Of a DNA stretch of 64,000 nucleotides, positions 2,731 through 64,000 are shown piece by piece (the first letter of the stretch is position 1; each line of letters opens with the position of its first letter). The DNA lies in contig CAJJBY010000007.1 of NCBI GenBank assembly GCA_905182545.1, positions 226,001 through 290,000 on the forward strand, given 5' to 3'. The stretch comes from an uncultured Candidatus Puniceispirillum sp. (GTDB taxonomy: Bacteria > Pseudomonadota > Alphaproteobacteria > Puniceispirillales > Puniceispirillaceae). The notes below the pieces were generated by a model. That model saw nothing but the letters and a program-made list of their open reading frames with translations, did no database searches and was not told the DNA's origin. Made by a program: the position numbers and the translations under genes.

Positions 2731-4620
2731 AATACGGCTCTTGTTTTGGCCTGTTTCTGTTGACGCTTGATATGGCGAAGCACGGCAACAACCGCCGCCG
2801 GTGTCAAACCGGGAAGGCGGTTGGCATGGCCAATCGTTTCTGGCTGAAACCGCCGCAAAATATCTTTTGACTCAGCCGACAGCCCACCAACAGCGGCAAA
2901 ATCAATTTGCGCTGGAATCGTGACGGCTTCATCACGGCGAAGCGCGTCAATATCGGCCTGCTGGCGATCAACATAGCCAGCATAGCGGTAGTCAGCCTCA
3001 AGCTGGCTATGTAACCGCGGCGAAATTGCCTCAAGCGCGGGCCAAAGTGGCAAAATCTCAGCAATGCCAATCGATTCAAGCGTCAATAGATCAGCCGCAC
3101 TGCGCGCTGCGCCATCACGCGGCGATGGTAGACCAGCAGCAGCAACCGCCTTGGCAGGCTGAATGCTTGTCTCAAGCATCGATCGTGCCGTCTGCAAATC
3201 AGCCGATTTTGCCCGCCATGCGGTTTCGCGAACCGACCCAACGCAGCCAATCGCCAAGCCGCGATCGGTCAAACGCTGATCAGCATTATCAGCCCGAAGC
3301 AATAGCCGGTATTCGGCGCGTGAAGTAAACATGCGGTAAGGCTCAGGCGCGCCCTTAGTGATTAAATCATCAACCATTACACCGATGTAAGCATCGGCAC
3401 GATCAAGAACAAACGGCGTGTAATCAGCACCATTGGCAGCAAGCAACGCCGCATTGATACCAGCAACAAGCCCTTGTGCCGCTGCTTCTTCATAGCCGTT
3501 GTGCCATTGATCTGGCCAGCAAGATATAATCCGGGAAGCGCTTTTAACGCCAAAGAGCGACGCAATGCCCGGGATCGACAAAATCATATTCAATTGCATA
3601 CCAAATTGCAAGATTTTCGCCGATTCCAACCCAGGGATTGTGGCAATCATTGCGCTTTGACATCACGCGGAAGGCTTGTCGAGATCCCATTTGGATAAAC
3701 CGTTGGATCATCAAGCCCTTCAGGTTCTAGAAAAATCTGATGCGAGCTTTTATCAGCAAACCGTTCAATCTTATCCTCGATTGACGGGCAATAGCGTGGC
3801 CCAGTTCCCGAAATCTGGCCCTATAAACCGCCGATAAATGGATCGATTCGGCAATAATCCGGTGGGTTTCAGCCGTTGTGCGCGTAATGCCACATGAAAT
3901 TTGCGGAACGGTAATTTTATCGGTCAGGGTCGAAAAGGGGATTGGCGGATCATCAGCTGGCTGCATGTCAAGGCTTGCCCAGTCGATGCTTGTGCCATCA
4001 AGCCGTGCTGGCGTGCCAGTTTTCAACCTTCCAAGCGGCAAATCAAGCGCGGCAAGCCGTGCCGCTAATTGGTTTGATGGCGCTTCACCAACCCGGCCTG
4101 CCGGCGTACGCTCGCTGCCAAGATGAATCAAGCCACCCAAAAACGTGCCAGTGGTCAAAACAACAGCGCCACAGTGAAATTCGCGGCCATCCTCGGTTAT
4201 GATGCCAGTTGCCTTGCGATCTTCACCCGAACCCGTTACCGAAATATCACCAACAGCAGCTTCGATAATCTGAATATTCGGCGTTTCAGCCAGCAAATCC
4301 TGAATCGCCATGCGATAAAGCTTGCGGTCAGCTTGCGCGCGGGGGCCATGAACCGCTGGCCCGCGTGACTTATTCAACATTCTGAACTGGATACCGGCGC
4401 GATCAATGGCACGACCCATAATGCCGTCAAGCGCATCAATCTCACGAACAAGATGACCTTTGCCAAGCCCACCAATCGCCGGATTGCATGACATTTCGCC
4501 AATCCGGTCAGCCCGCATGGTGATCAGCGCAACCGACGCGCCCATCCGCGCCGCAGCTGCCGCTGCTTCACAGCCAGCATGGCCACCGCCAACAACAATG
4601 ACATCGAACGTGATTGTCAT
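2727..4620 (-). CDS. mnmG: tRNA uridine 5-carboxymethylaminomethyl modification enzyme MnmG (several frameshifts)
   Basis: MnmG (GidA) is the FAD enzyme that, with MnmE, installs the cmnm5 group at U34 of tRNAs. The start is ATG 4620. The N-terminal FAD fold is clear ([21 protein letters not shown]), as is the family signature [19 protein letters not shown]. The frame is broken about four times. At ~3822 one G is missing from a run, after SAVYRG; at ~3660 a base is missing in [13 protein letters not shown]; further breaks near 3600 and 3495 leave the [20 protein letters not shown] block in a third frame. After these the C-terminal part reads normally ([34 protein letters not shown]). Total span of about 631 codons equals the family length, so nothing large is lost. 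It is adjacent to rsmG and to mnmE, which is upstream on the same strand. Sequencing error is more likely than decay. Confidence 0.92.
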
Positions 4621-4676: not shown

Positions 4677-6022
4677 CTATTTTCCAATACAAAAGGCCGA
4701 AAAGATGCTTCCCAAAAGTTCTTCAACATCAATTTCGCCAGTAATCCGGCCAAGCGCCACTGCCGCAACGCGGAAATCTTCAGCCGCCATTTCAGGCGCA
4801 TGCTGGAAATCATGACCCAGCGCGCGGCCCAAAGCATCATGCGCTTCCTGCATGGCGTGGCGGTGTCGTTGACGGGTGATAATCACACTTGCATCAGCAT
4901 GGTTTAACGGCACCAGCAATTTGGCCAATTTTTCCATCAATCTTTCGATATCAGCAGGCGCTTTCGCCGATATCGACATCATTTGACCAGATGCCGCGTC
5001 ATTTGCTGCTGATAAACCCTGATCAGCCTTATTGAGAATATAGAATTTTGGCTGGCTGGTCAGCTGATCAATCTTGTCGCGTGCCGCTGGCCAAGCTGGG
5101 TCACTGCCATCCAAGATCACCAAAACCAGATTGGCAAATCCGGCGGCCTCGACCGATCGCCGGATGCCTTCAGCCTCGATTTTGCCGCTTTCATCACGAA
5201 TACCAGCCGTGTCCAAGATCGTCGCAGGAACGCCGCCTAGATCAAGCCGGATCTGGATAATATCGCGCGTTGTGCCAGCTTCATCTGAAACAATCGCCGC
5301 CGAACGTCCAGCCAAAGCGTTTAAAATCGTTGATTTTCCAGCATTTACTGGCCCAATCAAGGCAATGGTCACGCCATCACGAACCAATTCCCCCGCACCA
5401 CCATCATCAAGGTGACTTGCCAAAGCCGACTGCAAATCACCGGTACTTGTTCGCAAAGCACCTTCGACCGAAGCTGGCAAATCCTCATCAGCAAAATCAA
5501 TCAAGGCTTCGAGCTGGGCAGCGATGCCACCAATTCACCGCGCCATGCCATCACTGGCGCGCGCAATGCCCCATCGATCTGCGCCCAAGCCTGATGCAAT
5601 TGGGTTGCGGTTTCCGCCTCGATCAGATCGGCAAGCCCTTCAACGCCGGATAAATCCATTTTCCCATTCATAAAGCTGCGGCGGGTAAATTCGCCCGGCT
5701 GCGCCATTGAAAAGCCATCTTCGGCGCCAAGGCGCGCCAATAACACATCAATAACGGCGCGGCTGCCATGACAATGGATTTCACAAACATCTTCGCCAGT
5801 GCTTGAAAATGGCGCTTTCATAAAAAGCAGAATCACCTGATCGATCACCCGTTGATCCAGAACCAGCCGCGCCACCGAAAATTGCCCAGCCGACGGACAG
5901 GCCGCGCCAAATAACGCTGGTGCATCGCCGGCCAAAGGACCACTGATCCGGATCACCGCAATGGCTGACCGGCCAGGTGGGGTCGCAATGGCAAAAATCG
6001 TTTTATATCCGGCTTGGCTCAT
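4677..6022 (-). CDS. mnmE: tRNA modification GTPase MnmE (frameshifted)
   Basis: MnmE (TrmE) is the GTPase partner of MnmG in tRNA wobble-uridine modification. The start chosen is ATG 6022 (MSQAGYKTIFAIATPPG), matching the family N-terminus better than more upstream methionines. The N-terminal folate-binding domain includes HCHGSRAVIDVLL and PGEFTRRSFMNGKMDL. The frame shifts at about 5515, where one base is missing after LVASL, and continues with the G domain: GPVNAGKST (G1), GTTRD (G2), DTAG (G3), NKAD (G4). It ends with the invariant FCIGK, whose Cys is needed for modification. About 449 codons, the normal length. Confidence 0.94.
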
Positions 6023-6141
6023 AATCTTTTCAATAATTCCATTCTCTGATAGGGTTTTCCTAAGCGAAAGACAGCCGACAACAAGTCTCTTTTTCATGTC
6101 CGTTACTGGCGGTTGTCTCAACAGTAACCAAAGGAGAGATT

Positions 6142-8523: not shown

Positions 8524-9549
8524 CTACCGGTTGCGAATATGATCAATCATTTTCTGTACATTTTCCACCGGCGTTGGTGGGGTAATGCCGTGTCCAAGAT
8601 TGAAGATATGAGGGCGATCGTGGAACGCGTCAAGGATATGATCAATATCCCGAAACATTTCGGTGCCGGCATTCAGCAAGCTTAATGGGTCAAGATTACC
8701 TTGTACTGGCATTTTTGCTGGTAAATTTTGTCCAGCCCATACCGGATCAACCCCATGGTCAAGACCAATCGCGTCAACGCCACTTTCAGCTGCATAACGA
8801 ATCAAACCTTCACCAATACCCTTTGGAAAGCCAATAATTGGCTGGTTATGTCCGTTTTTGCGAACCCCTTCAACGATGGCGCAAGCGGGTTTATTACAAG
8901 CCAATCACGCTGCGCTGCTGGCACTGCACTTGCCCAGCTGTCAAAAAGCATCAATGCTTGCGCACCTGATTGTGCTTGAAGCGATAAAAACGAAATCGTT
9001 GCATCAATCAGAATATCTAATAAACCATCCAAAGCTTTTGCATTTTGCCACGCCCATTGCCGTGCTTTGGAAAAATCACGCGATGTACCACCTTCGGCCA
9101 TATAGGTAATCAAAGTCCAAGGCGCACCAGCAAATCCAATTAATGTTGTTTCAGGCGGCAAGCAGGTCGGGTTAAAGTCAATGCTTGTCCAACAGGTGCT
9201 AATTTCTGGCTTAAACCATTAAGACAAGAAGCATCAATATCATCAGGCTGTTCCATTGCATCAAGCAAGGGCCCAATACCAGTTTTAAACCTTACATTGC
9301 GGTTCATCGCCCACGGTATCATCAGAATATCTGAAAATATAATCGCTGCATCGAACCCATAACGAGCAATGGGTTGCAAGGTGACAGCTGATGCTTGTTC
9401 AGGATTAAGACAAAAGAAATAAAATCTTTCTGGCTTGCGCGTATCTTTCGATATTCTTCGAGATAGCGGCCAGCTTGACGCATCATCCAGATTGGTGTTG
9501 TGCGTGATTTTACGCCTTGGAGGGTTGAAAGGAATAACTGGTCTGGCAT
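8524..9549 (-). CDS. hemE: Uroporphyrinogen decarboxylase HemE (three frameshifts)
   Basis: HemE decarboxylates uroporphyrinogen III to coproporphyrinogen III. The N-terminus has [20 protein letters not shown] with the conserved active-site loop. Frames change at about 9418 (after KDFISF), about 9155-9165 (ALTLTRPAC to [15 protein letters not shown]) and about 8885-8905 (DWLVIN to [10 protein letters not shown]). The joined product contains [50 protein letters not shown] and [12 protein letters not shown], all family hallmarks. The span is 1026 bases (342 codons), so the three shifts cancel and length is normal. ATG 9549 is chosen because of an upstream agagaa; ATG 9564 is possible. First leftward gene from the candidate origin. 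Confidence 0.92.
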
Positions 9550-9637
9550 TCTGTTCTCTAACATATATATATATTAAAAAAAGGTTGTTGTTTTAGTAGT
9601 ACCTGTGTGTAACCACATCTTTACTGTTATTCAAATG

Positions 9638-12082: not shown

Positions 12083-12799
12083 ATGCGTGAAATTGCTCTT
12101 GATACCGAAACCACCGGCATTAGCCCGCGTGATGGGCACCGTATTATTGAAATTGGCGCTTTGGAATTGATGCATCATCTGCCAACAGGTCGCAAATTGC
12201 ATCTCTATATCAATCCTGAACGCGAAATTGATGATGGTGCGGTTGCGGTTCATGGCATCACCAGCGATTTTCTGGCTGATAAACCCGTTTTTGCCGATAT
12301 TGTTGACGAATTTCTGGGCTTTGTCGGTGATGATCCGATGGTCATCCATAATGCCAGCTTTGATATGGGTTTTCTTAATGCTGAATTGAAACGGCTTGAC
12401 TCGGCCAGTTCTGCCAATGGCGCAATCAATTGATACATTGATGATGGCACGCAAGAAATTTCCTGGCGCGCAGGCCAATCTCGATGCGCTATGCCGCCGG
12501 TTTGAAATTGACAATAGCCATCGTGACCTTCATGGCGCCTTGGTTGATGCCGATCTTTTGGCAGCGGTCTATATTGAATTGCTGGGGGGGCGGCAACCGG
12601 GTTTGTCACTGGATTCAGACAGCCAGACCCAAGCCGCCGATCAGGGCGTGCCAAACAGCATTGACCCGACCCAAGTTTTCATCTTGATGCCAAGCCAATG
12701 CGGCCCATTCGGGCGCATGCGCCAACCGCTGAAGAGTTGAAGGCGCATGCAAAATTTTTGGAAGAGTTAAAAAACCCAATCTGGCAAAATGACGTCTAG
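12083..12799 (+). CDS. dnaQ: DNA polymerase III epsilon subunit DnaQ (frameshifted)
   Basis: The 3'-5' proofreading exonuclease of DNA polymerase III. Exo I motif LDTETTGISPRDGHRIIEIGA at residues 6-26; Exo II VIHNASFDMGFLNAEL. The frame shifts at about 12405, after which LPMAQSIDTLMMARKKFPGAQANLDALCRRF and the Exo III region HGALVDADLLAAVYIELLGG follow. A second shift near 12695 restores the first frame, giving APTAEELKAHAKFLEELKNPIW and a TAG at 12797-12799. Total 239 codons, normal. Without the second correction the product would end early at 12740. Located between coaE and convergent secB, the usual place. Confidence 0.92.
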
Positions 12800-16609: not shown

Positions 16610-16981
16610 ATGACCTATGATAGCAATAACATTTTTGCCAAAATCCTCCGTGGCGAAATCCCGTGCCAGAAAATTGACGAAGATGAACACACGCTCAGCT
16701 TTGCCGATATCAACCCGCAGGCACCTGTTCATATTTTGGTGATTCCAAAAGGTGCTTATTGTAACTGGGCCGATTTTGCGGCGACTGCCAGCGCGGTGGA
16801 AATGGCCGCCTTTACCAAAGCCATTCACCGTGTTGCCGAATTAACCGGCATTAGCAAAACCGGCTATCGGGTGATTTCCAATACCGGTTTGGACAGCCAT
16901 CAAGAGGTGCCACATCTTCATATGCATGTTCTTGGTGGTGCGCCTGTTGGGCCATTGGTTTTGGCAAAATCCCAGCTTTAG
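16610..16981 (+). CDS. hinT: HIT-family purine nucleotide hydrolase (HinT-like)
   Basis: 123 residues, full length for HinT. The histidine triad HLHMHVLGG is at about residues 103-111 and the N-terminal NNIFAKILRGEIPCQKIDEDE matches the family closely. HinT enzymes hydrolyse phosphoramidates of AMP. In many alphaproteobacteria the gene is near the hisE/hisF cluster; here it follows a GNAT gene. Confidence 0.92.
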   Translation: MTYDSNNIFAKILRGEIPCQKIDEDEHTLSFADINPQAPVHILVIPKGAYCNWADFAATASAVEMAAFTKAIHRVAELTGISKTGYRVISNTGLDSHQEVPHLHMHVLGGAPVGPLVLAKSQL

Positions 16982-17115: not shown

Positions 17116-18112
17116 ATGCACGAATAAATTCATACGATCGCATTTTGGGGCATTGAAACGATTGCCTTCATGTTTCAGATTCATATTGCCAATGGCTTGC
17201 CTGCTATGGCGATTGTTGGGCTTGCTGATATGGCTGTGGCTGAAACGCGCGAACGTGTGCGGGCGGCATTGGCGTTTGATGGTGTAATGCAGCCAGTATC
17301 AGGTGTTCTGCCAGCGGCAATTGACGCAGTGGCGGATGGCCGCGATCTGATTTGCCCGCATGATTGCGGCAGTGAAGCTGCATGGGCCAAAGGCTTGTCG
17401 ATCATCGCCCCGCCTAGCCTGACCGATTTGGTCAATCATATTCATGGCCGCCAGGTTTTGCATCCGCCAACGCCCAAAATGGCACCAGCTAGGCAAAAAA
17501 TTTCTTTGGCGAATCATGGTGTTTTGTTTCTTGAAAGCTGGCTGAATTTTCACGCTTGTTCTCGATTCGCTTCGCCAACCACTTGAAACTGGATCGGTTG
17601 TCGTTGCTCGCGCCAATCACATGTCACCTATCTAGCAGGTTTCAGCTTATTGCGGCAATGAATCCTTGTCGCTGTGGCTATCTTGGCGATCCGGCGCGTG
17701 CCTGTAGTAGGGCACCAGCCTGCGATCAAACCTATCAGGCCAAAATTTCTGGGCCGATGATGGATCGTTTTGATTTGATCATTGAAGTGCCTGAGATCAG
17801 CGCCGGTGTTTTGCTGAAAGAAGCAAGCAGTGAATCAAGCCAGATTGTTGTCGCGCGGGTGGCTGCTGCGCGTCAATTTGGTGTGCTTCGCAACCGAGGG
17901 ATCATGCGTGCCAATGCCCATATCGGCATTGACCAGCTCAATCAGCAAATCATGATGGATAATGCGGCCCAAGATCTGCTGCGAACGGCAATTGATCAGG
18001 TGAATTTATCGGCTTGTGCCTATCATAAAATCATGCGGGTTTCGCGCACGATTGCCGATCTTGCTGGTGATGAGAAGGTTGGCCGTGCCACACTTGCCGA
18101 AGCCTTGGCTTA
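17116..18112 (+). pseudogene. comM: Decayed ComM / YifB-type Mg-chelatase-like ATPase
   Basis: ComM is a hexameric AAA+ helicase for branch migration in natural transformation. The remnant is clear: TIAFWGIETIAF, QIHIANGLPAMAIVGLADMA, RERVRAALAF, PVSGVLPAAI, SLANHGVLFLE, LIAAMNPCRCGYLGDPARAC, ISGPMMDRFDLIIEVPE, VSRTIADLAGDEKVG. An in-frame stop TAA (17125-17127) follows ATG-CAC-GAA at the expected start. About 60 codons are missing between RVRAAL and PVSG. About 90 codons, including the Walker A loop GxPGxGKS, are missing before SLANHG. At least four frameshifts are packed into 17535-17660. Restored length is about 330 codons against about 505. The 3' end runs into convergent gshB. A true pseudogene is the best reading, since single-base errors cannot explain the block losses. 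Confidence 0.85.
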
Positions 18113-19078
18113 CCTGGCGATGCCGTTGCTTGCATTGGTAGGGTGTTTGCGTTCAATCGCATCCCATGTCAGCGCTGCAATATCAATGCCCGACAAACGC
18201 TGGATTTCGCGAATGCCGGTTGGCGAGGTTACATTGATTTCAGTCATATAATCGCCAATGATATCAATACCGACAAACAACAAGCCGCGGCAGCGCAATT
18301 CGGGGCCAATGGCGGCACAGATTTCCAGATCACGATCGGTTAATTCGGCTTTGGCCGCGCTGCCACCAACATGGAAATTTGACCGGGCTTCGCCTTCATT
18401 TGGAATCCGGTTGACCGCGCCAACCGCTCCACCATCAACCAGAATGACGCGCTTATCACCATCACGAACCGAAGGAAGATAGGCCTGAACCATGACCGGT
18501 TCGCGGCTGGCACCAAAAAACATTTCCAGAAGCGAGCTTAAATTCTGATCATTTGGCTGCAATCGGAAAACGCCAGCGCCACCATTGCCAAATAGCGGCT
18601 TTATGATGATGTCTTCATGTTTCTGGCGAAACGCCATAATCGTTTCCGGATCACGGCTGATCAATGTTGCTGGCATCAAATCGGGATAAAGCGTGACAAG
18701 CAGCTTTTCCGGTGCGTTTCGGACTTCGGCCGGATTATTGACAACCATGGTTTGCGGGCCAAGCATTTCCAGCAAATGTGTTGCGGTGATATAAGCCATA
18801 TCGAATGGCGGATCTTGCCGCATCAAAATGACGTCAAATTCCTGCAAAGGCCGTGTTTCGATTGCGCCGGTTTTAAAATGCGCGCCAGCCTGATCATAAA
18901 AGGTGACATCCTGCCCGCGGGCGGTAATGATGCCCTCATTCAAGCTTAGCTTGTCAGCTGTATAATACCACAGGCTATGGCCGCGTTTTTGCGCTTCAAG
19001 ACCAAGCGCAAAAGTTGTGTCTCCGGCGATGTGAAGCGTTTCGACCGGGTCCATCTGAATGGCAATTGAAAGACCCAT
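18110..19078 (-). CDS. gshB: Glutathione synthetase
   Basis: GshB joins gamma-glutamylcysteine and glycine using ATP. 322 residues, intact. N-terminal [30 protein letters not shown] is diagnostic. The ATP-grasp core includes [53 protein letters not shown], and [27 protein letters not shown]. Downstream of a BON lipoprotein gene on the same strand, in the rsmI-yraN-bon-gshB run common in alphaproteobacteria. Confidence 0.96.
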
Positions 19079-21287: not shown

Positions 21288-22928
21288 ATGCGAACTATGT
21301 TTGAAAATGACCGGATAAACCAATCAGGCCAAAGCTTGATTATGGATTGTCAGCCATGTTGGCGGCAGACCAAAGGATTGATTGCGGCTGTCGCAATGAT
21401 CGCACTTGCTGGCTGCCAGCCGGCAACGATGCCGTCATCATCTATTCCTGGCAACAACAAAAACAGCCTCGTTATCACAAATTCAACAAGCGTCACCCGT
21501 GCCAAAATCACCGGTACCAAAACCAACGATATCAAAACCAGGCTTAGCCGAATCATCAGACCAAGACCAGATCAGCAATTAATCGGACGGCGCCAGACAG
21601 ATCTTCTCCAGATAGCCCCTCTGATGCAAAAAAACCTGGTCAGGACAGCACAACCGATCTTGCCGCGGCAAATGCGATCATGGATTCGATCATCTGGCAA
21701 TTTCAAACCGATGATAAAGTGATTGAAACCACTGAGTCAACGATACCGATTGGCCCTGATCCATCGCTAAGTGATGATGCGCTTGATGCGGCTTTTGCGC
21801 TTTTATCAAGCCGGATTCGGCCGCAAAGTTTTGAGCCGGTTTTTGAGATGCCGCCAAAAGGTGATGGGGTTATTCGTGTTGGGCTTTTAGTGCCGTTAAG
21901 TGGTGAATATGCAGCCCTTGGCATGGAAATCCGGCGAAGCGTTGAAATGGCATTATTCAAAATCAACAATCCCAAGATTGAGATTTTATTTCTCGACACA
22001 AAGGGTGGTGAAACCGCTGGCAATGCGGCAATGACCGGCTTGAATAGTGATGTGGATATTTTCATTGGCCCGCTTTTCACCGATGCGGTGACGCAAGCAC
22101 GCGCTGTCACCGATCAGCTTCGTGATGGTCGCTCGCGGCCACTAATGCTATTGCTGTCAAATAATGTCGATGTTGCCAGTGCCGATCGCTGGTTGATGGG
22201 CTATCTTCCCGAACAGCAGCTTGATGTTTTGCTTGGTCATGCGGTCAGCACGGGTAAAGCGTCGCTTTGCCTTGATTGCGCAAGATTCGCTTTTTGGGCA
22301 GCGTCTATTGACGCATGCAAGCCAACGTTTGGCTGATTTTGGGTTAACGCCCGAAGCGGTGCGCGTGCTAAGCGATGATGAACTTGCTGATGAAACCAAT
22401 CTGAAAGATGCCATTCGCGCTTTTACCCGCTACACCGCGCCAATTGATGAAGCGCCACTTGCCGACAGCCCGTTTGATGCGGTGATTTTTGCTGGTGATC
22501 CAGCTTTTTCGCTTCGCACCGCGCCGGTTCTTGCCTTTTATGATGTTGGGCCTGATCGCGCGCTTTATCTTGGCAATGCCTTATGGAATCAACATCAGCT
22601 TTTGGTCGAACCATCGCTTCAAGGCGGGCTGTTTTCAACACGGCCAAGCAATCTTGATGCGCGTTTCGATGCTGACTGGACTGAAATCTGGGCAGAACCG
22701 GCAGGCCAGTTGGCGCGGGTGGGGTTTGATGCGATGGCGCTTGTCGCGGCTTTGGCAAAATCAAATCATCGCGATTGGTCAAAACAGCTTGTCAGCAATA
22801 GCGGGTTTCAAGGCTATAGCGGGGCGTTTCGCTTGCTGCCAAATGGCCGCAATATCCGCAGTTTTGAATTGCGCAAAATCAATAAGGGCGAGGCCAAGAT
22901 CATTCGTCCGGCACCAAACAAGATTTAA
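21288..22928 (+). CDS. Penicillin-binding protein activator lipoprotein, LpoA/LppC-like (frameshifted)
   Basis: Lipoprotein with a periplasmic-binding-protein fold, related to LpoA that stimulates PBP1A. The lipobox IALAGC ends an N-terminal hydrophobic segment. A proline/serine/threonine linker rich in K and Q follows, broken by frameshifts at about 21450 and 21585. The main domain reads IRVGLLVPLSGEYAALGMEIRRSVEMAL, IEILFLDTKGGE, IFIGPLFTDAVTQA. A third shift at about 22255 leads to RRFALIAQDSLFGQRLL, FDAVIFAGDPAF, GGLFSTRP and GYSGAFRLLPNG. Start ATG 21288 or 21342 cannot be decided. Divergent from rsmI, as in many proteobacteria. Confidence 0.85.
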
Positions 22929-31330: not shown

Positions 31331-31356
31331 GAACTTTCACGGCAAAAGTGGCAGGC

Positions 31357-32467
31357 ATGAGCAAACGCGATTACTATGACGTATTGGGTGTTGAAAAAGG
31401 TGCTGACGACAAAGCTATAAAGGCGGCATTTCGCAAGCTTGCGATGGCTAATCACCCTGATCGAAATCAGGGTGATGATGCGGCTGAAGACCGGTTTCGT
31501 GAAGCCAATGAAGCCTATGATATTTTAAAAGATCCGCAAAAACGCGCTGCCTATGACCGGATGGGTCATGCCGCTTTTGACCAATCCGCTGGCTGGTGGC
31601 GGTGGCGGCTTTGGTGGCGGCGGCTTTTCCGATATTTTCGATCAGATGTTTTCTGAATTTTCGGGCGGCGGTGGCGGGCGGCAGGGCAATCAGGGCGGCA
31701 ATGATCTTCGCTATGATATGTCAATTTCGCTTGAAGACGCCTTTACCGGATTGCAGCAGGATATTTCAATCACGGTACCGTCTGAATGTGATGGCTGTTC
31801 AGGCAGTGGCGCGGCTGATGGCAGCAAGCCAAGCACATGTGGAACATGTGGCGGTGCTGGCCGGGTTCGGGCGCAGCAGGGCTTTTTCGCTGTCGAACGC
31901 ACCTGTCATGCCTGTCAGGGTATGGGTCAGGTTATTTCTGACCCTTGCCGGACTTGTGGCGGTGAAGGCCGTGTTCAACGTGCCAAAACATTGGCGGTTT
32001 CGATTCCAGCCGGTGTTGATACCGGAACGCGGATCAGGCTTTCGGGCAAGGGCGAAGCCGGGCTTCGCGGTGGGCCGGCAGGTGATCTTTATATTTTCGT
32101 CAATGTTGATCCCCATCTGATTTTTGCCCGTGATGGCGGCAATCTGCATGCGCGTATTCCATTGCCAATGACCGTTGCCGCGCTTGGTGGCAGCATTGAT
32201 GTGCCAACGCTTGAAGGTAAAATGGCGCGGTTAACGATTGAGGCCGGCACCCAATCGGGGCGCAAATTCCGCATGCGGGGCAAAGGCATGCCAGCCTTGC
32301 GGCGCGGCAATCCGGGTGATCAGATCATCGAGGTTCAGGTGGAAACACCAACCAATCTCAATAAAAAGCAAAAAGAGCTTCTTGAAGCTTTTTCAAATTC
32401 AGGCAATACCAGCCCTGAATCATCAAGTTTTTTGGAACGCGTCAAACGCATCTGGGCGGATAGCTAA
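31357..32467 (+). CDS. dnaJ: Chaperone DnaJ (frameshifted)
   Basis: Hsp40 co-chaperone that stimulates DnaK ATPase. ATG 31357 gives [20 protein letters not shown]; the J domain has the HPD triad in [12 protein letters not shown]. The frame shifts at about 31588 at the start of the Gly-rich region (AFDQSAGG then [19 protein letters not shown]). Four CxxCxGxG zinc-finger repeats follow: [32 protein letters not shown]. The C-terminal domains are full length. About 370 codons. A one-base change in a GGT/GGC repeat is an easy sequencing error. Confidence 0.95.
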
Positions 32468-41055: not shown

Positions 41056-43890
41056 CTAAGATTTTAGATCTAGCATCGTCAAAATCGCAATCGGCCAAAT
41101 CCAGTCCAATTGCCAACCCAACCGCCATGCCAGATGGCATTGCATGGCATCGTTGGCTATTGCCCTTGCAAGGCGCAATGGCTGTCTATGAGCCACCACT
41201 TGACCGGCAGGCGATCGAGGCCGAGCTTGATTCATATGCCACTGGCAAAACACCGGTAAATCGTACCAAGCTGTTAAGCTGTTTGCGAACCCATCTTGAT
41301 CAGGCAAAAGCCAGCCTTCGCGAGTCGTTTTATCACAGCAATGATGGCGCTGTTTATGTTGGCATGCATGCTTGGGCCATTGATATTTTGCTGCAAAGCC
41401 TTTACGCGCAAACGCAAAAACAATGCGCTGGAGGTGACGAGCTGGCGCTGATTGCCGTTGGCGGTTATGGGCGTGGTGAAATGGCACCATTTTCCGATAT
41501 TGATATCATGTTTCTGATGCCAAAAAAGGCAACAGAAACCCATACAAAATTTATCGAATTCATGCTGTATATTTTATGGGATCTTGGCTTGAAAATTGGC
41601 CATTCAACCCGCAGCATTGCCGAATCGATTGATGCGGCAAATGACGATCAGACAGTGCTGACAAGCCTTCTTGAAATGCGTCATGTGGCTGGTGATGATT
41701 CGATGTGGGTGAAATTGAATCGGGCGGTTCAGCGCAAAATTGCCAAACAGAAACCGCTTGCCTATGTTGAAGAAAAGCTTGGCGAGCGTGACCTTCGCCA
41801 TAAACGATTTGGCGATACGCGCTATGTTGTTGAACCGAACGTCAAAGATGGCAAGGGCGGGCTTCGTGATCTTCACAGCCTGTTCTGGATTACCAAATAT
41901 GCCTATCGTGCCAACAGCATTATTGACATTGTCAAAAAAGGTGTTCTTCGTGATGGCGAGGCGCGGAAATTTGCCTTGGCGCAGCGGTTTTTATGGACGG
42001 TTCGCTGTCATCTTCATCTTCATGCTGACCGGCCTGAAGAACGGCTGGATTTCGAAGCGCAAATGATCATTGCACCGCGTCTTGGCTTTGCCGATCGGGG
42101 CGGGCTTCGTGGTGTTGAACGGTTTATGAAACGCTATTATCTAGCAGCGCGGAATGTTGGCAATCTAACGCGTATTTTCTGTGCGGCGATGGAAACGGAT
42201 TTCCGCAAAAGCCTGATCAATTGGCGGCCTAATTTTCTGCGCACCCATGAGCTTGACCCGTTTCATATTGAAAGTGGGCGCGTCCGGCTTGTCGATGATA
42301 TCTTGTTCCGTGATGCGCCAATTCGGCTGATCGAACTATTTGCCATTGCGCAAAAACATGATGCTGATGTTCATCCAAGCACGCTTCAACGCGTCACCCG
42401 GGCGTTATCGGCACTTGATTCAAAAACGCGTGATGATGCGCAGGCGAACCAATTATTTCTGGATATTCTGACATCGCGCAAAAATCCTGAACGGGTGCTT
42501 CGTTTGATGAATGAAAGCGGCGTCTTTGGCCGCTTTTTGCCTGATTTTGGCTGGATTGTCGCGATGATGCAATTTGATATGTATCACAGCTATACGGTTG
42601 ACGAACACACCTTGAAGGCCATTGGTATTCTTCATGGGATTGAAACAGGCGCGCTATGCCAAGCTGCGCCAGTTGCGACCGAGGTGATGCCGGAAATCGG
42701 ATCGCGGCGCGCGCTTTATGTTGCCATGCTTCTTCATGATATTGCCAAAGGGCGTGGCGGCGATCATTCGGTTTTGGGCGCCGAGGTGGCATTGGCGGTT
42801 TGCCCGCGTCTGGGGCTAAGCCATGAAGAAACCGAAACGGTTAGCTGGCTGATCCTACATCATTTGCTGATGAGCAAAATCGCGTTTCGCTATGATCTGA
42901 ATGACCCGCAAACGATCGAGGATTTTGCCAGTATTGTGCAATCACCCGAGCGGTTGAAACTGCTTTTGGTTTTGACCGTTGCCGATATTCGGGCGGTTGG
43001 GCCGAATATCTGGAATGGCTGGAAAGCGGCGTTGATGCGCGATCTTATATTATCGCTGCGATGCCGTTTTGCGTGGTGCTGATCCGGCGGTGATCGCGCT
43101 TGGCAATGCCGAAGAGGCGCGTCAGGAGGCGGCGGCGAAACTAACCGATTGGAACGTGGCGCGGTTTGCCGCACATGCAGCGAATATGCCGTTGACCTAT
43201 TGGACAGGATTTGATTGCGAAAGTCAGGTTCGTCATGCGCGGCTTTGTGATCAATTTGCCAATCAGGATGCGCTGTTATTGATTGATTTCAAGCCTGATC
43301 TGGCGCGGCGCATAACCGAATTGACCATCCTAACCATTGATGATCCGGGGCTTTTTGCGCGGATTGCCGGTGCGGTGGCAGCGGCTGGTGCGAATATTGT
43401 CGGCGCGCGCATTACGACCTGTCATGATGGCACGGTTCTTGATGTTTTCTTTTTGCAGGATATTAAGAATCAGGCGATTGAAGATAAGAATGAATTGGCG
43501 CGGATCCGCACAACGCTTGAACGGTCGCTAACAGGGTCATTGAAACTTGAAAAGGCGCTATTGGCGCGCTGGCAGCAAACCCCGCTTCGGGTGCGGCAAA
43601 TGCCGGTTCCGTCGCGCGTTCTATTGTCGAACAAGATCAGCAATACCCATAGCGTGATTGAAGTTAATGGCCGCGATTTTCCGGGCTTGCTTCATAAAAT
43701 CACGCTTTGCCTTGCCAGTCTTGGATTGCAAATCCAGACGGCCACTGTTTCAACCTATGGCGAGCGTGTTGTCGATGTGTTTTATGTGAAAGATATTTTT
43801 GGTCTGCAAGTTCAAAGCGAAACGCGCCAGCAAACCATCCGCAGCCGGCTGTTGGCGGTTTTTGATGATACCGATGAGGAAGCGGTATGA
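41052..43890 (+). CDS. glnD: Bifunctional uridylyltransferase/uridylyl-removing enzyme GlnD (frameshifted)
   Basis: GlnD senses glutamine and uridylylates or de-uridylylates PII. The nucleotidyltransferase motif GGYGRGEMAPFSDIDIMF is at about residue 135. RYVVEPNVKDGKGGLRDLHSLFW follows, then the HD domain (LLHDIAKGRGGDHS) near 560. The frame shifts at about 43048, where an extra base lies in the sequence for DLYYRCDAVLRG, and the C-terminal part has two ACT domains (ILTIDDPGLFARIAGAVAAAG; IEVNGRDFPGLLHKITLCLA). About 946 codons, the normal length. Between mutS and murJ with ATGA overlaps on both sides. Confidence 0.95.
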
Positions 43891-48618: not shown

Positions 48619-49664
48619 TTATGGCACCAGAAATTGTTTGCCAAACCAGCGCCAACGTCCATCTGGGCCGGGCATGGTGCAATTGACACGGGCACGACCT
48701 GAAGGCAAGGGACCGGGAAACCGCACTTCGGTACGCGGTCCTAACCGGCTGATTTTTAACTGGTCATAGGTGTTGTTGAAACAGCGCAATTGGCTATTTG
48801 TGGCAATCTCTGGCGCCAGCGTAAAACCAAAATCAGGCGGGTTTTCCCAATCACAACATCGGCAGGCAGGATCTGATTGGCTTTGAGCGGCAGGCCGTCA
48901 ATCGCCAATGATAAACGATCCATCGCACCATAACGTTCATTCATGGCAAAACGTGGCAGTTCAAAATAGCCATCATAGCCATGCGCAATACCCGAATTTT
49001 GACCAAAACCGGCAATGAAACCAGCCGCCTTCACGCGCTCGATAACGGCCAGATTATATTCGCCATAAGGATAGGCAAACAGATTTGGACGAAGACCAAG
49101 CTCGGTTAGAAACCGCTGGTTTGACTTTTGTAATTCGACGTCAACATCGGCAAGGCTGGATAAATGCATATGCGGGTGACTGGCTGTCTGGCTGCCAATG
49201 TCAACCCCATCAGCCTGCAATTGCCGAAGCTGATCCCAGCTCATATAGCCGCGATGCTTGCGATCAATTGGATCGGTGGCAACAAAAACGGTAAAGGGAA
49301 ATCCTTTTGCCTTTAGCCGTGGCCATGCTTCGGTGAAAACCGATAGATAGGCATCATCAATGGTAATCGCGACTGTGCGGTCGGGAAGCGGCATGTCTTT
49401 TTGTAAATGATCGACAATTTTTGCCAAAGGCCAGACCGAATAATTGCCATTTGATAGTTTTTCGAGATGCGCATCAAATTGATCAAGGCGGATATTCGTG
49501 CTTGGAAGCCGGTCTTCACCAAACCGGTGATACATCAAAATCACCGCATGATCCGCGGCAAAGGCCGATCCCAGAAACGACAGTAGCAGAACCAACATTG
49601 CCACAAATCTGCTGCCAAGATAGGCAAGCCAATGACAAGCATTTTGATAATGTCTTATGTCCAT
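48619..49664 (-). CDS. Polysaccharide deacetylase family protein (frameshifted)
   Basis: Secreted NodB-type carbohydrate esterase. Start ATG 49664 (MDIRHYQNACHWLAYLGSRF) with aggtgg upstream; a signal peptide ends at about residue 36 (SAFAADHAVILMYHRFGEDR). NodB motifs: VAITIDDAYLSVFTEA, then DIGSQTASHPHMHLSSL and FAYPYGEYN. The TIDDA replaces the usual TFDDG, and the metal-binding His pair is SHPHMH. A shift near 48850 changes the C-terminus; in the corrected frame it reads WENPPDFGFTLAP through GRWRWFGKQFLVP with TAA at 48619-48621. Without the fix it stops at 48756. Likely targets envelope polysaccharide; substrate unknown. Confidence 0.85.
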
Positions 49665-49800
49665 AGCAGATTTTCCACCTAAAAAATGATACAACTCTGA
49701 CTTTACCGGCGGCGTTGCCAATGTTAGAGCGATCTCATTTAACGCATCTTGGTAAGATGATGCAACCCGATAAGCCAAACTGGATAAAAGGATAAGCCGA

Positions 49801-50556
49801 TTGAAAACGCCCAAACGCCCCGATGCCTTGCCGGTGATATTAGCCTTTGAAGCCAGCACCAATCAACTGTCAGTTGCCGTCTATGCTGATGGGATGATTC
49901 GCGCCATGAAATTGGCTGAGGCTGCCTTTGGGCAGGCCGCATCATTGGTGCCATTGGCGGTTTCGGCTTTGGCCGAAGCAGATATTGGTTTTGCCATGAT
50001 CAGCCATGTTGCTGCCGGGCGTGGTCCTGGATCATTTACCGGCCTTCGTGTTTCACTGGCCGCGGCCAAAGGTGTTTGTTTGGCGCATGATTTGCCCGGG
50101 CTTGGCATTTCCGGCCTTGAGGCGCTTGCCTATTCTTGTGGTGATGAAGAGGGTGATTTGCCAATCTTATGTCTTGCCGATACGCGGCGCGGCAATGTCT
50201 ATGCGCAGTTTTTTGCCGTCGATATGACACCGCAAGGTGATATTTTTGAAGCGCAGATCGAACAATTGCCATTGCTTGTGCCTTCGGCGTTTGGCCAAGA
50301 GGCAATTTTGCTTGCTGGTTATGGCGGGCAAGCTGCTGCCGCTGCCTTTATTAGCGCTGGCAGGCAGGTTCGCTTGGCGGGCGGCAGAATGATATCAGCT
50401 GATGCGGCTGATCAAGGGGTTGATGATATATCGGTTGATGCTGGTATGATTGCCAGGCTTGCCGCGCATCACCTTGCACGCGACAAGATTTCGCCGTTGA
50501 CGCCGCTTTATCTCGCCGATCCGCGCCTTGGGCCGAAAAAGAAAGCATCGGCTTGA
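49801..50556 (+). CDS. tsaB: tRNA threonylcarbamoyladenosine biosynthesis protein TsaB
   Basis: TsaB is the non-catalytic partner of TsaD/TsaE in making t6A37 in tRNA. 251 residues from TTG 49801, with an aaggataa site upstream. ASKHA-fold features: ILAFEASTNQLSVAVYADG, GRGPGSFTGLRVSLAAAKGV (the family hallmark, residues 76-95) and ILCLADTRRGNVYAQFF. The next gene rimI starts in its stop codon. Confidence 0.93.
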   Translation: MKTPKRPDALPVILAFEASTNQLSVAVYADGMIRAMKLAEAAFGQAASLVPLAVSALAEADIGFAMISHVAAGRGPGSFTGLRVSLAAAKGVCLAHDLPGLGISGLEALAYSCGDEEGDLPILCLADTRRGNVYAQFFAVDMTPQGDIFEAQIEQLPLLVPSAFGQEAILLAGYGGQAAAAAFISAGRQVRLAGGRMISADAADQGVDDISVDAGMIARLAAHHLARDKISPLTPLYLADPRLGPKKKASA

Positions 50557-61522: not shown

Positions 61523-64000
61523 ATGACTGACGATAGCAGTAAACCAAAAAAACTGAGTCTCTCAGGTAGCAAATTGACGCTTGGCAATATTGACGCCAGC
61601 AAGCTACGTGCCGGGCCATCAGTTGGTGGTGCGCGCAAAACGGTTCAAGTTGAAGTCCGGCGCAAACGCGCTCCAGCTGCGCCGCAACGCGGTGGGGCAA
61701 CAGCGCCTGAACCAGTGGTAACCCAACCCGTACAAACCGCCGCCGCGCCAGCCCCATCGGCACCTACCGCTGATGATCGGCTAACAGCGCAAGAACGCGC
61801 CGCGCGTGTTCGCGCCCTGCAAGAAGGGCTTGCCAAGGCCGATGCACCAGCTGGTGAGGCAAATGTTCCCGCCGATGATCATGCCAAAGCGCCGGCCGAA
61901 ACACCGGGTGAAGCTGCTGCACCAGAAGCTGCAACCGAACCAGAAATGCCGCTTGATTCGGTTGCCGCGCGCCGCGCTGCCGAACTTGCTGAATTGCAGG
62001 AAATCGAAGCTGGTGAAGAGCGTCGCCGTAGTGAAGAGAATAAAAAACATACCGATGCGCACGCAGCGCGCCGTCAGGTTACCGAAGAAGCGCCAAGCGA
62101 TACGGCGGCAGCGGCCAATAAATTTGGTTCAACGCCAACCGAGATACAAAATCGCCGTCGCCGCGAAGCTGAAGAAATGGCACCGCGCCGCCCAGCACCA
62201 CGCCGCGAAGCTGTGGGTCGCCGCCAATCAGGTAAAATGACCATTACACAGGCTTTGTCGGGTGATGACAGCCGTCGTCAACGCTCGCTTGCTTCGGTCA
62301 AGCGCCAGCGTGAGCGGGCGCGGATGCGCGAAGAACAACCGCAGGTCAAACAGCTTCGTGATGTGGTTATTCCTGACAGCATTACAGTAAGTGAATTGGC
62401 AAACCGGATGGCCGAGCGCACTGCCGATGTGGTAAAAGAGCTGATGAAGCTGAACATCATGGCAACAGCAACACAGGCCATTGATGGTGAAACGGCTGAA
62501 TTGGTGGCTGGTGAATTTGGGCACCGGATTCAGCGTGTATCTGAATCGGATATTGAAATTGGCCTTGGTGGTGATGATGATCCGGCGGAAATCCTGCAAC
62601 CACGCCCGCCTGTCGTGACCATTATGGGTCACGTTGACCATGGTAAAACTAGCCTTCTTGATGCCATTCGCCGCACCGATGTTGCGGCTGGTGAATCAGG
62701 GGGAATTACCCAGCATATCGGCGCCTATCAGATTAAGACAGCGGCCGATAATGTCATTACTTTCATTGATACGCCGGGTCATGAAGCCTTTACCGAAATG
62801 CGGTCACGCGGGGCGAATATCACTGATATTGTCGTTCTGGTTGTGGCGGCTGATGATTCGGTCATGATGCAAACCATCGAAGCGATTAACCATGCCAAGG
62901 CTGCAGGCTGTCCAACAATTGTTGCAATCAATAAATGTGACAAGCCTGCAGCCGATTCGGCGCGCGTGCGAAGCGATTTGTTGCAGCATGAAATCATCAC
63001 CGAAGATTTTGGCGGCGATGTTTTATGTGTTGATGTGTCAGCGCATACAGGAATGGGTCTCGACAAGTTGGAAGAAGCCATCATGTTGCAGGCCGAACTT
63101 CTCGAATTGAAGGCCAATCCTGATCGTCCGGCCGAAGGTGTTGTTGTTGAATCAAAGGTTGAGCGCGGCAAGGGATCAGTTGCTACATTGCTGGTCCAAC
63201 GCGGCACCTTGAAGCAAGGCGATATTTTTGTCATTGGTGCTGAAAGCGGTCGTGTTCGTGCGTTGCTTGACGATCGTGGCAAAACCCTGCAATCAGCGGG
63301 GCCGGGTCAGCCTGTTGAGATTCTGGGTCTGAACGGCACGCCGATGGCAGGCGATAGCTGTGTTGTTGTTGAAAGCGAAGCGCGTGCGCGTGAAATTGCC
63401 GAATATCGGACACGCCGCAACCGTGATCACGAGGCCGCCCGCGGTGCACGTGGATCGGTCGAGCAGATGCTGTCGGCAATTGCCGCTGGTGAAGCTGAAG
63501 AATTACCAGTTGTGATCAAGACCGATGTTCATGGCTCGCTTGAGGCCATTCGTGTTGCGCTGGAAAAGCTAGGAACCGAACAGGTGAAGGTGCGTCTATT
63601 GTCGGCCGGTGTTGGTGCGCTTAGCGAATCTGACATCAGCCTTGCCGCCGCCTCAAATGCCATTGTGGTTGGCTTTAACGTTCGGGCGATTCCGCAGGCG
63701 CGTGATCTGGCAAAACGTGATGGTGTTGAAATTCGCTATCACTCGATTATTTATGAACTTATCGATGAAGTCAAAGCAGCAATGGGCGGCCTTCTTAGCC
63801 CCGATACGCAAGAAGATTTCATTGGTTACGCCGAAATTCGTCAGGTCTTTGGTGTGTCAAAAATTGGCAAGATTGCCGGTTGTATGGTGACCGAAGGCGT
63901 TATCAAACGTGGCTGCAAGGTTCGCTTGCTGCGTGATAATGTGGTGATTCATGAAGGCTCGCTCAAAACCCTGAAGCGCTTTAAAGATGAAGTCAAAGAA
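61523..64000 (+). CDS. infB: Translation initiation factor IF-2, 5' part (runs off window)
   Basis: Open from ATG 61523 to the window end with no frameshift, 826 codons so far. The N-terminal domain is Ala/Pro/Glu-rich and low complexity (residues 50-250), with the conserved start [13 protein letters not shown]. The G domain begins near residue 368: [12 protein letters not shown] (G1), [18 protein letters not shown] (G3), NKCDKP (G4), SAHTGMG (G5). Beta-barrel and C1/C2 domains follow ([13 protein letters not shown]-type, [33 protein letters not shown]). Only the extreme C-terminus is missing. Confidence 0.97.

Follow-up and report, generated by a model that had tools for sequence, protein, structure and literature searches.

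The comM gene in the DNA analysed here is a pseudogene, and its decay is very probably one part of the loss of a whole ComEC-dependent module for DNA import and recombination (comEC, comF, comM and dprA) in this SAR116 lineage. ComM/YifB (TIGR00368), a Mg-chelatase-like AAA+ protein, is the branch-migration helicase of Gram-negative natural transformation. We observe lesions in all four genes of the source genome, all of which are open in a sister genome, as well as relaxed constraint on comM and dprA and a correlated loss of the genes across the order. The window, i.e., the whole stretch of 64,000 nucleotides that was analysed (G000:C7:226001-290000), stems from G000, an uncultured, Puniceispirillum-like SAR116 genome assembled into 13 contigs (2.0 Mb; completeness 98.4%, contamination 4.48%). 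Its GshB is 91-97% identical to GshB of four Candidatus Puniceispirillum sp. genomes. The sister genome G003 shows a DNA identity of about 89-90% to G000 in the comM flanks, and G004 provided the syntenic comparison and the outgroup.

The comM remnant covers 17116..18136 on the forward strand. It is preceded by an intact gene for a HIT-domain protein (16610..16981, forward strand), which served as synteny marker, and followed by the intact, convergent glutathione synthetase gene gshB (18110..19078, reverse strand). The gene order HIT-comM-gshB is common to the G000 remnant and the intact comM copies. At their 3' ends, comM and gshB share about 27 nt (18110-18136), and the comM remnants of several relatives end there. 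Since the two 3' ends overlap, a deletion in comM must halt before the end of gshB.

Lesions were identified by alignment to the open comM of G003 (501 codons), that is, by the comparison with an intact relative that the original prediction had proposed. The original start ATG at 17116 is followed by a TAA at 17125-17127 (17116..17127, forward strand), such that the predicted early stop is indeed present, at codon 4. Further downstream on the same strand, two in-frame deletions were found with junctions at 17267..17268 (171 nt, 57 codons; copies overlap by about 6 nt at the break) and 17497..17498 (309 nt, 103 codons; overlap of about 4 nt). The latter spans codons ~185-287 in G003 numbering, among them those for GPPGAGKS (codons 216-223), i.e., G000 comM is without Walker A (GxPGxGKS). 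The original prediction of a genuine pseudogene lacking this motif is thus confirmed, and both of its in-frame losses, given as about 60 and about 90 codons, are real with the second removing the P-loop; the size of the second needs correction. Four single-base losses follow after 17534, 17555, 17619 and 17637 (17534..17638, forward strand; span of about 105 nt), the first of which hits the DE pair of Walker B (codons 300-301), and each of which alone could be a sequencing error. The proposed four or more frameshifts within 130 bases are therefore found as four, yet they are weaker evidence given the error rate of the assembly. ORF and domain searches together with the alignment show that the 3' remnant (17638..18136, forward strand) holds the end of the AAA+ domain and Mg_chelatase_C; it is open, without a start of its own, and the normal stop codon is altered. 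The changed stop lies near 18136, such that comM keeps its predicted start but extends beyond the predicted end at 18112.

The surviving 1021 aligned nt of comM are 86.8% identical to G003. Both remnant pieces are orthologous to ComM/YifB by sequence and match TIGR00368, but with scores of 57.3 and 136 bits they stay below the cut-off of 362.4 for a functional ComM. Unlike functional members of the family, the G000 copy has neither Walker A nor an unbroken Walker B and is stopped at codon 4. The Pfam domains retained are part of ChlI, the final portion of Mg_chelatase and the C-terminal Mg_chelatase_C domain (PF13335, E 6.8e-23). Work on other species has established Walker A and B as the ATPase motifs of ComM, according to the available parts of PMC11612176. 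Searches of the G000 genome with PF13541 and PF01078 found no second comM; the other matches are RadA, a frame that is presumably Lon-like and one further frame that we take to be AAA+. Compared with the intact orthologue that a close relative has at this locus, comM of G000 carries disabling lesions and is, judged by its sequence, a genuine and fairly recent pseudogene and more than a sequencing artefact. In itself, a comM pseudogene is ordinary and a known kind of thing.

The other three import genes, whose inspection had been suggested along with the original prediction, are damaged as well. For comEC, no match to the Competence domain (PF03772) was found in G000 at E 1e-8, i.e., there is no intact ComEC channel. 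A single deletion of 1581 nt between intact gltX and lexA (G000:C2:18584/18585) takes out the channel and leaves an open remnant of 162 codons. comF is without a TIGR00201 match at E 1e-6; at its syntenic place, 369 nt are gone (G000:C7 near 61985-61991), and the copies overlap by 7 nt where the break occurred. The dprA profile match reaches 192 bits compared to 234 in G003. Here, motif glycines are lost (SGMARGID to SRMARGID, AIPGSP to AIPRSP, IAGGID to IASGID), there are one 3-nt and one 1-nt loss, and the C-terminal part is out of frame. In G003, all four genes are open (comM 501 codons, comEC 689 aa, dprA 366 aa, comF 249 aa). The four large G000 deletions (171, 309, 369 and 1581 nt) are all multiples of three, for which simple arithmetic gives a chance of 1 in 81. 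We make nothing of this pattern because the comEC loss in G005, another genome of the genus, is 163 nt long and not such a multiple.

To assess constraint, substitutions at codon positions 1+2 were related to those at position 3 and compared between the G000 and G003 lineages, with G004 as outgroup. For comM, the ratio is 34:29 in the G000 lineage versus 8:30 in the G003 lineage (p 0.0016), and for dprA 43:35 versus 10:35 (p 0.0006), that is, both genes are relaxed in G000. The N-terminal piece of comM also differs (15:13 v 2:13, p 0.02); for the C-terminal piece alone, the relaxation is not significant (16:10 v 5:9, p 0.19). No significant relaxation was found for the remnants of comEC (17:12 v 8:14) and comF (3:11 v 6:7). 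The controls plsY (3:10 v 3:13), lexA (2:20 v 2:15) and gltX (23:40 v 14:40, p 0.24) show no significant shift.

How far individual lesions can be trusted depends on the quality of the assembly, which we assessed by comparing the window with the syntenic stretch of G004 (G004 ORFs of at least 120 aa that have a match with no less than 55% identity). Scattered frame changes, 13 or 14 in total, affect nine or ten other window genes and are most likely residual sequencing indels. Broken frames that are highly similar to open G004 genes lie at 1294-2074, 2733-4620, 4680-6085, 8527-9564, 12083-12793 (dnaQ-like), 21554-22925, 31348-32461, 41121-43872 and 48622-49838. In addition, radA and rpoB of G000 show one frame break each; the two radA pieces are 98-99.7% identical to G003. 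Because the assembly carries such sequencing-type frameshifts, the single-base losses, i.e., the four in comM and the one in dprA, are insecure evidence. The large comM deletions are robust and, together with the stop, provide stronger evidence than the four single-base losses. As the original prediction had noted, comM is unlike the genes with scattered single indels: it is the sole window gene in this comparison with an internal loss of more than 50 codons. A probable chimeric join (G000:C7:316000-325000) lies on the contig of the window, some 30 kb to its right. It presents, in this order, a truncated PLP-enzyme gene, another rpoB that is partial (55-66% identity to rpoB of G004 in its two clear pieces) and a foreign-looking rpoC, possibly from Bacteroidota. 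This join may account for part of the 4.48% contamination.

The comM locus was followed across the 16 genomes of the genus, 15 of which hold gshB (all except G001). comM is open at the locus in G002, G003 and G004, as well as in G015 as far as the contig extends; in G007 the gene runs off the contig end. In ten genomes (G000, G005, G006, G008-G014) comM is broken or the locus is empty. Six different remnant arrangements can be distinguished (G000, G005, G008, G009, G011, G012), several of them just about 80-240 nt long, and little or nothing of comM is left in G006, G010, G013 and G014. No insertion was seen in any of the ten broken loci, where the HIT-gshB interval shrinks or holds its length. 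G000 and G005 have no disabling lesion in common in comM, comEC or dprA, though all three genes are broken in both. In five genomes of the order (G034, G112, G031, G005, G009), the competence set is partly broken by frameshifts, stops or deletions; these are possibly caught in the middle of the decay.

Next to the genus, we surveyed 136 genomes of the order, in which matches were found for comM in 47, comEC in 38, dprA in 47, comF in 53 and RadA in 99. Counts were restricted to the 43 genomes with at least 90% completeness and at most 5% contamination, such that the 93 genomes below this line are left out. Among the 43, comM is matched in 29, comEC in 26, dprA in 30, comF in 32 and RadA in 41. 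Drafts often drop genes, since rpoB, which is indispensable to any cell, was found in just 37/43. Counting only comM matches above the cut-off, 24 genomes have both comM and comEC, 15 have neither, and 2 and 2 are mixed (Fisher p 1e-7); overall, p-values for this association range from 1e-7 to 7e-7. When copies seen to be broken were set as broken by hand, all four genes are present in 21 genomes, none is intact in 14 and 8 are mixed, i.e., 35/43 are all-or-none. Here, G002 was scored intact although there is one stop inside its comEC. Among the mixed genomes, G019 and G022 are without comEC alone and keep comM, dprA and comF, G027 is without comM alone, G015 without dprA alone and G031 without comEC and comF. 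A single gene is kept in G007 (dprA; comM at contig end) and G034 (comF), and comM and dprA are broken in G112, where comEC gives an intact match. We considered that the genes might be lost in a set sequence, from comEC via comM to dprA, and dropped this idea, given that G112 has comEC alongside broken comM and dprA and that G027 is without comM alone. Likewise, we rejected a general genome shrinkage, as estimated sizes are alike for the 26 genomes with and the 17 without comEC (medians 2.17 vs 2.22 Mb, rounded figures, p 0.78).

Losses were mapped onto a tree from RpoB and RadA, computed for 58 genomes and pruned to the 43. Parsimony yields six changes for comM, or seven when nothing but losses is permitted, and seven or eight for comEC; the count of loss events is approximate because some deep and shallow nodes are weakly supported (54-75). 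Of the seven groups that lost comM, five coincide with comEC loss groups, one overlaps with a comEC group, and G027 stands alone. The losses examined are deletions or frameshifts, without insertions. A model in which comM and comEC change dependently fits better than one with independent change (p 2.5e-5). With recoded states, the respective p-value is 1e-5; it becomes 1.6e-5 when G007 is left out and 0.0035 when both G007 and family f4 are. Intact and broken gene sets are interleaved across genus and order.

It is highly improbable that the organism has an intact comM and that the lesions merely reflect an unpolished long-read assembly. The frame changes in the other window genes, the frameshifts in radA and rpoB and the probable chimeric join do fit such an origin. 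However, multi-codon deletions are found in three competence genes on two contigs, each within native flanks, and no other window gene is alike. Moreover, a nonsense codon and missense changes in motifs are unlike indel errors, substitutions at codon positions 1+2 are raised, and comM is also broken in neighbouring genomes sequenced by others. A knock-out of comM by a mobile element, as by AbaR and other elements in Acinetobacter, has precedent for comM elsewhere in the accessible portions of PMC11472951 and PMC12955456, but it is scarcely credible here given the ten insertion-free broken loci of the genus with their shrinking or constant HIT-gshB interval. We also regard it as very unlikely that the open 3' piece is retained as a small protein. 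Such a product could be encoded by a 231-aa ORF with TTG start spanning 17556-18251, and the C-terminal part taken alone shows no significant relaxation. Against it stand the absence of both Walker motifs, the lost stop and the six differing remnants of the genus, several of which, at about 80-240 nt, argue against a conserved product.

A single shut-off in the ancestor of the species cluster, e.g., when a regulator or a part of the pilus was lost, followed by independent decay, is a serious possibility; the number of losses seen would then overstate the number of functional losses. The broken comM, comEC and dprA of G000 and G005 without any shared disabling lesion are consistent with this, as is gltX, at which G000 is closer to G005 (91.5%) than to the intact G003 (89.5%). 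Yet, a single event cannot cover all cases, because intact and broken sets interleave across genus and order. Rather unlikely, though worth considering, is that the module served the reception of gene transfer agents (GTAs) instead of free-DNA transformation, such that its loss would have followed the loss of GTA exchange. As far as the sections of PMC10883770 and PMC6899734 at hand go, ComEC, ComF, ComM and DprA are needed for GTA reception in Rhodobacter and Bartonella, and within alphaproteobacteria, GTA genes show co-evolution with comEC, comF and dprA; the set lost in G000 is the same gene set. The literature that combines SAR116 with gene transfer agents is, among the matches listed and in the parts available, mostly phage genomics.

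Compared to known cases, the joint decay of the set stands out. In Acinetobacter baumannii, comM is often lost via insertions, which is tied to non-transformability, and its loss is also reported from Pasteurellaceae (PMC11472951, available parts). Frequent comM loss is thus common to both groups, but according to the same excerpts it is mostly due to inserted elements in A. baumannii with the other machinery generally kept, whereas comM of G000 was lost by deletion and together with comEC, comF and dprA. In Piscirickettsia salmonis, comEC is interrupted by a transposon insertion, and comM, dprA and other genes are intact (PMC12955456, available parts); the uptake channel is lost in both, but in G000 the whole set decays together. 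For GTA reception in Rhodobacter and Bartonella, the portions of PMC10883770 and PMC6899734 at hand describe exactly ComEC, ComF, ComM and DprA as acting as a unit, and the likeness to SAR116 concerns this com gene set.

For the loss of the whole module, which we prefer as explanation, the following course seems probable. When uptake via ComEC ceased to be of use, the remaining genes of the module would have been released from selection and could then have gathered stops, indels and deletions, some of the latter between short repeats. Cells of this lineage would be unable to import and integrate DNA via the ComEC route. The same decay appears to have arisen separately in neighbouring lineages. 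RadA, the housekeeping branch-migration helicase, is retained; the excerpts of PMC11612176 describe it as a relative of ComM with a housekeeping role in recombination. The lesions in comEC, comF and dprA thereby lend support to the original suggestion that the lineage has lost or changed transformation. Because alphaproteobacteria also import GTA DNA with these genes, as stated in the available parts of PMC10883770 and PMC6899734, the predicted change is better worded as a loss of the ComEC-dependent DNA-import route.

In the literature on SAR116 or Puniceispirill combined with natural transformation, comEC or competence, we found no earlier report of this loss among the matches listed, and the portion of PMC11813361 at hand holds nothing on it. 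Of possible specialist interest is that the deletion is all-or-none and recurs within a marine order of free-living bacteria. Beyond the single genome, we tentatively suggest that SAR116 lineages repeatedly discard the whole import module, all or none and without genome shrinkage, where the receipt of DNA, be it free or packaged in GTAs, has become a liability or its donor has been lost. If true, the order would offer natural replicates of the loss at various stages, among them sister species of about 90% identity with four working versus four broken genes. It is an open question why some bacteria retain natural transformation and others give it up, and SAR116 is an abundant marine group. Since its losses are mostly all-or-none and repeated, involve sisters of about 90% identity and occur at equal genome size, SAR116 would make a good comparative set to study the drivers of loss as well as the role of the module in the import of free DNA versus GTA DNA.
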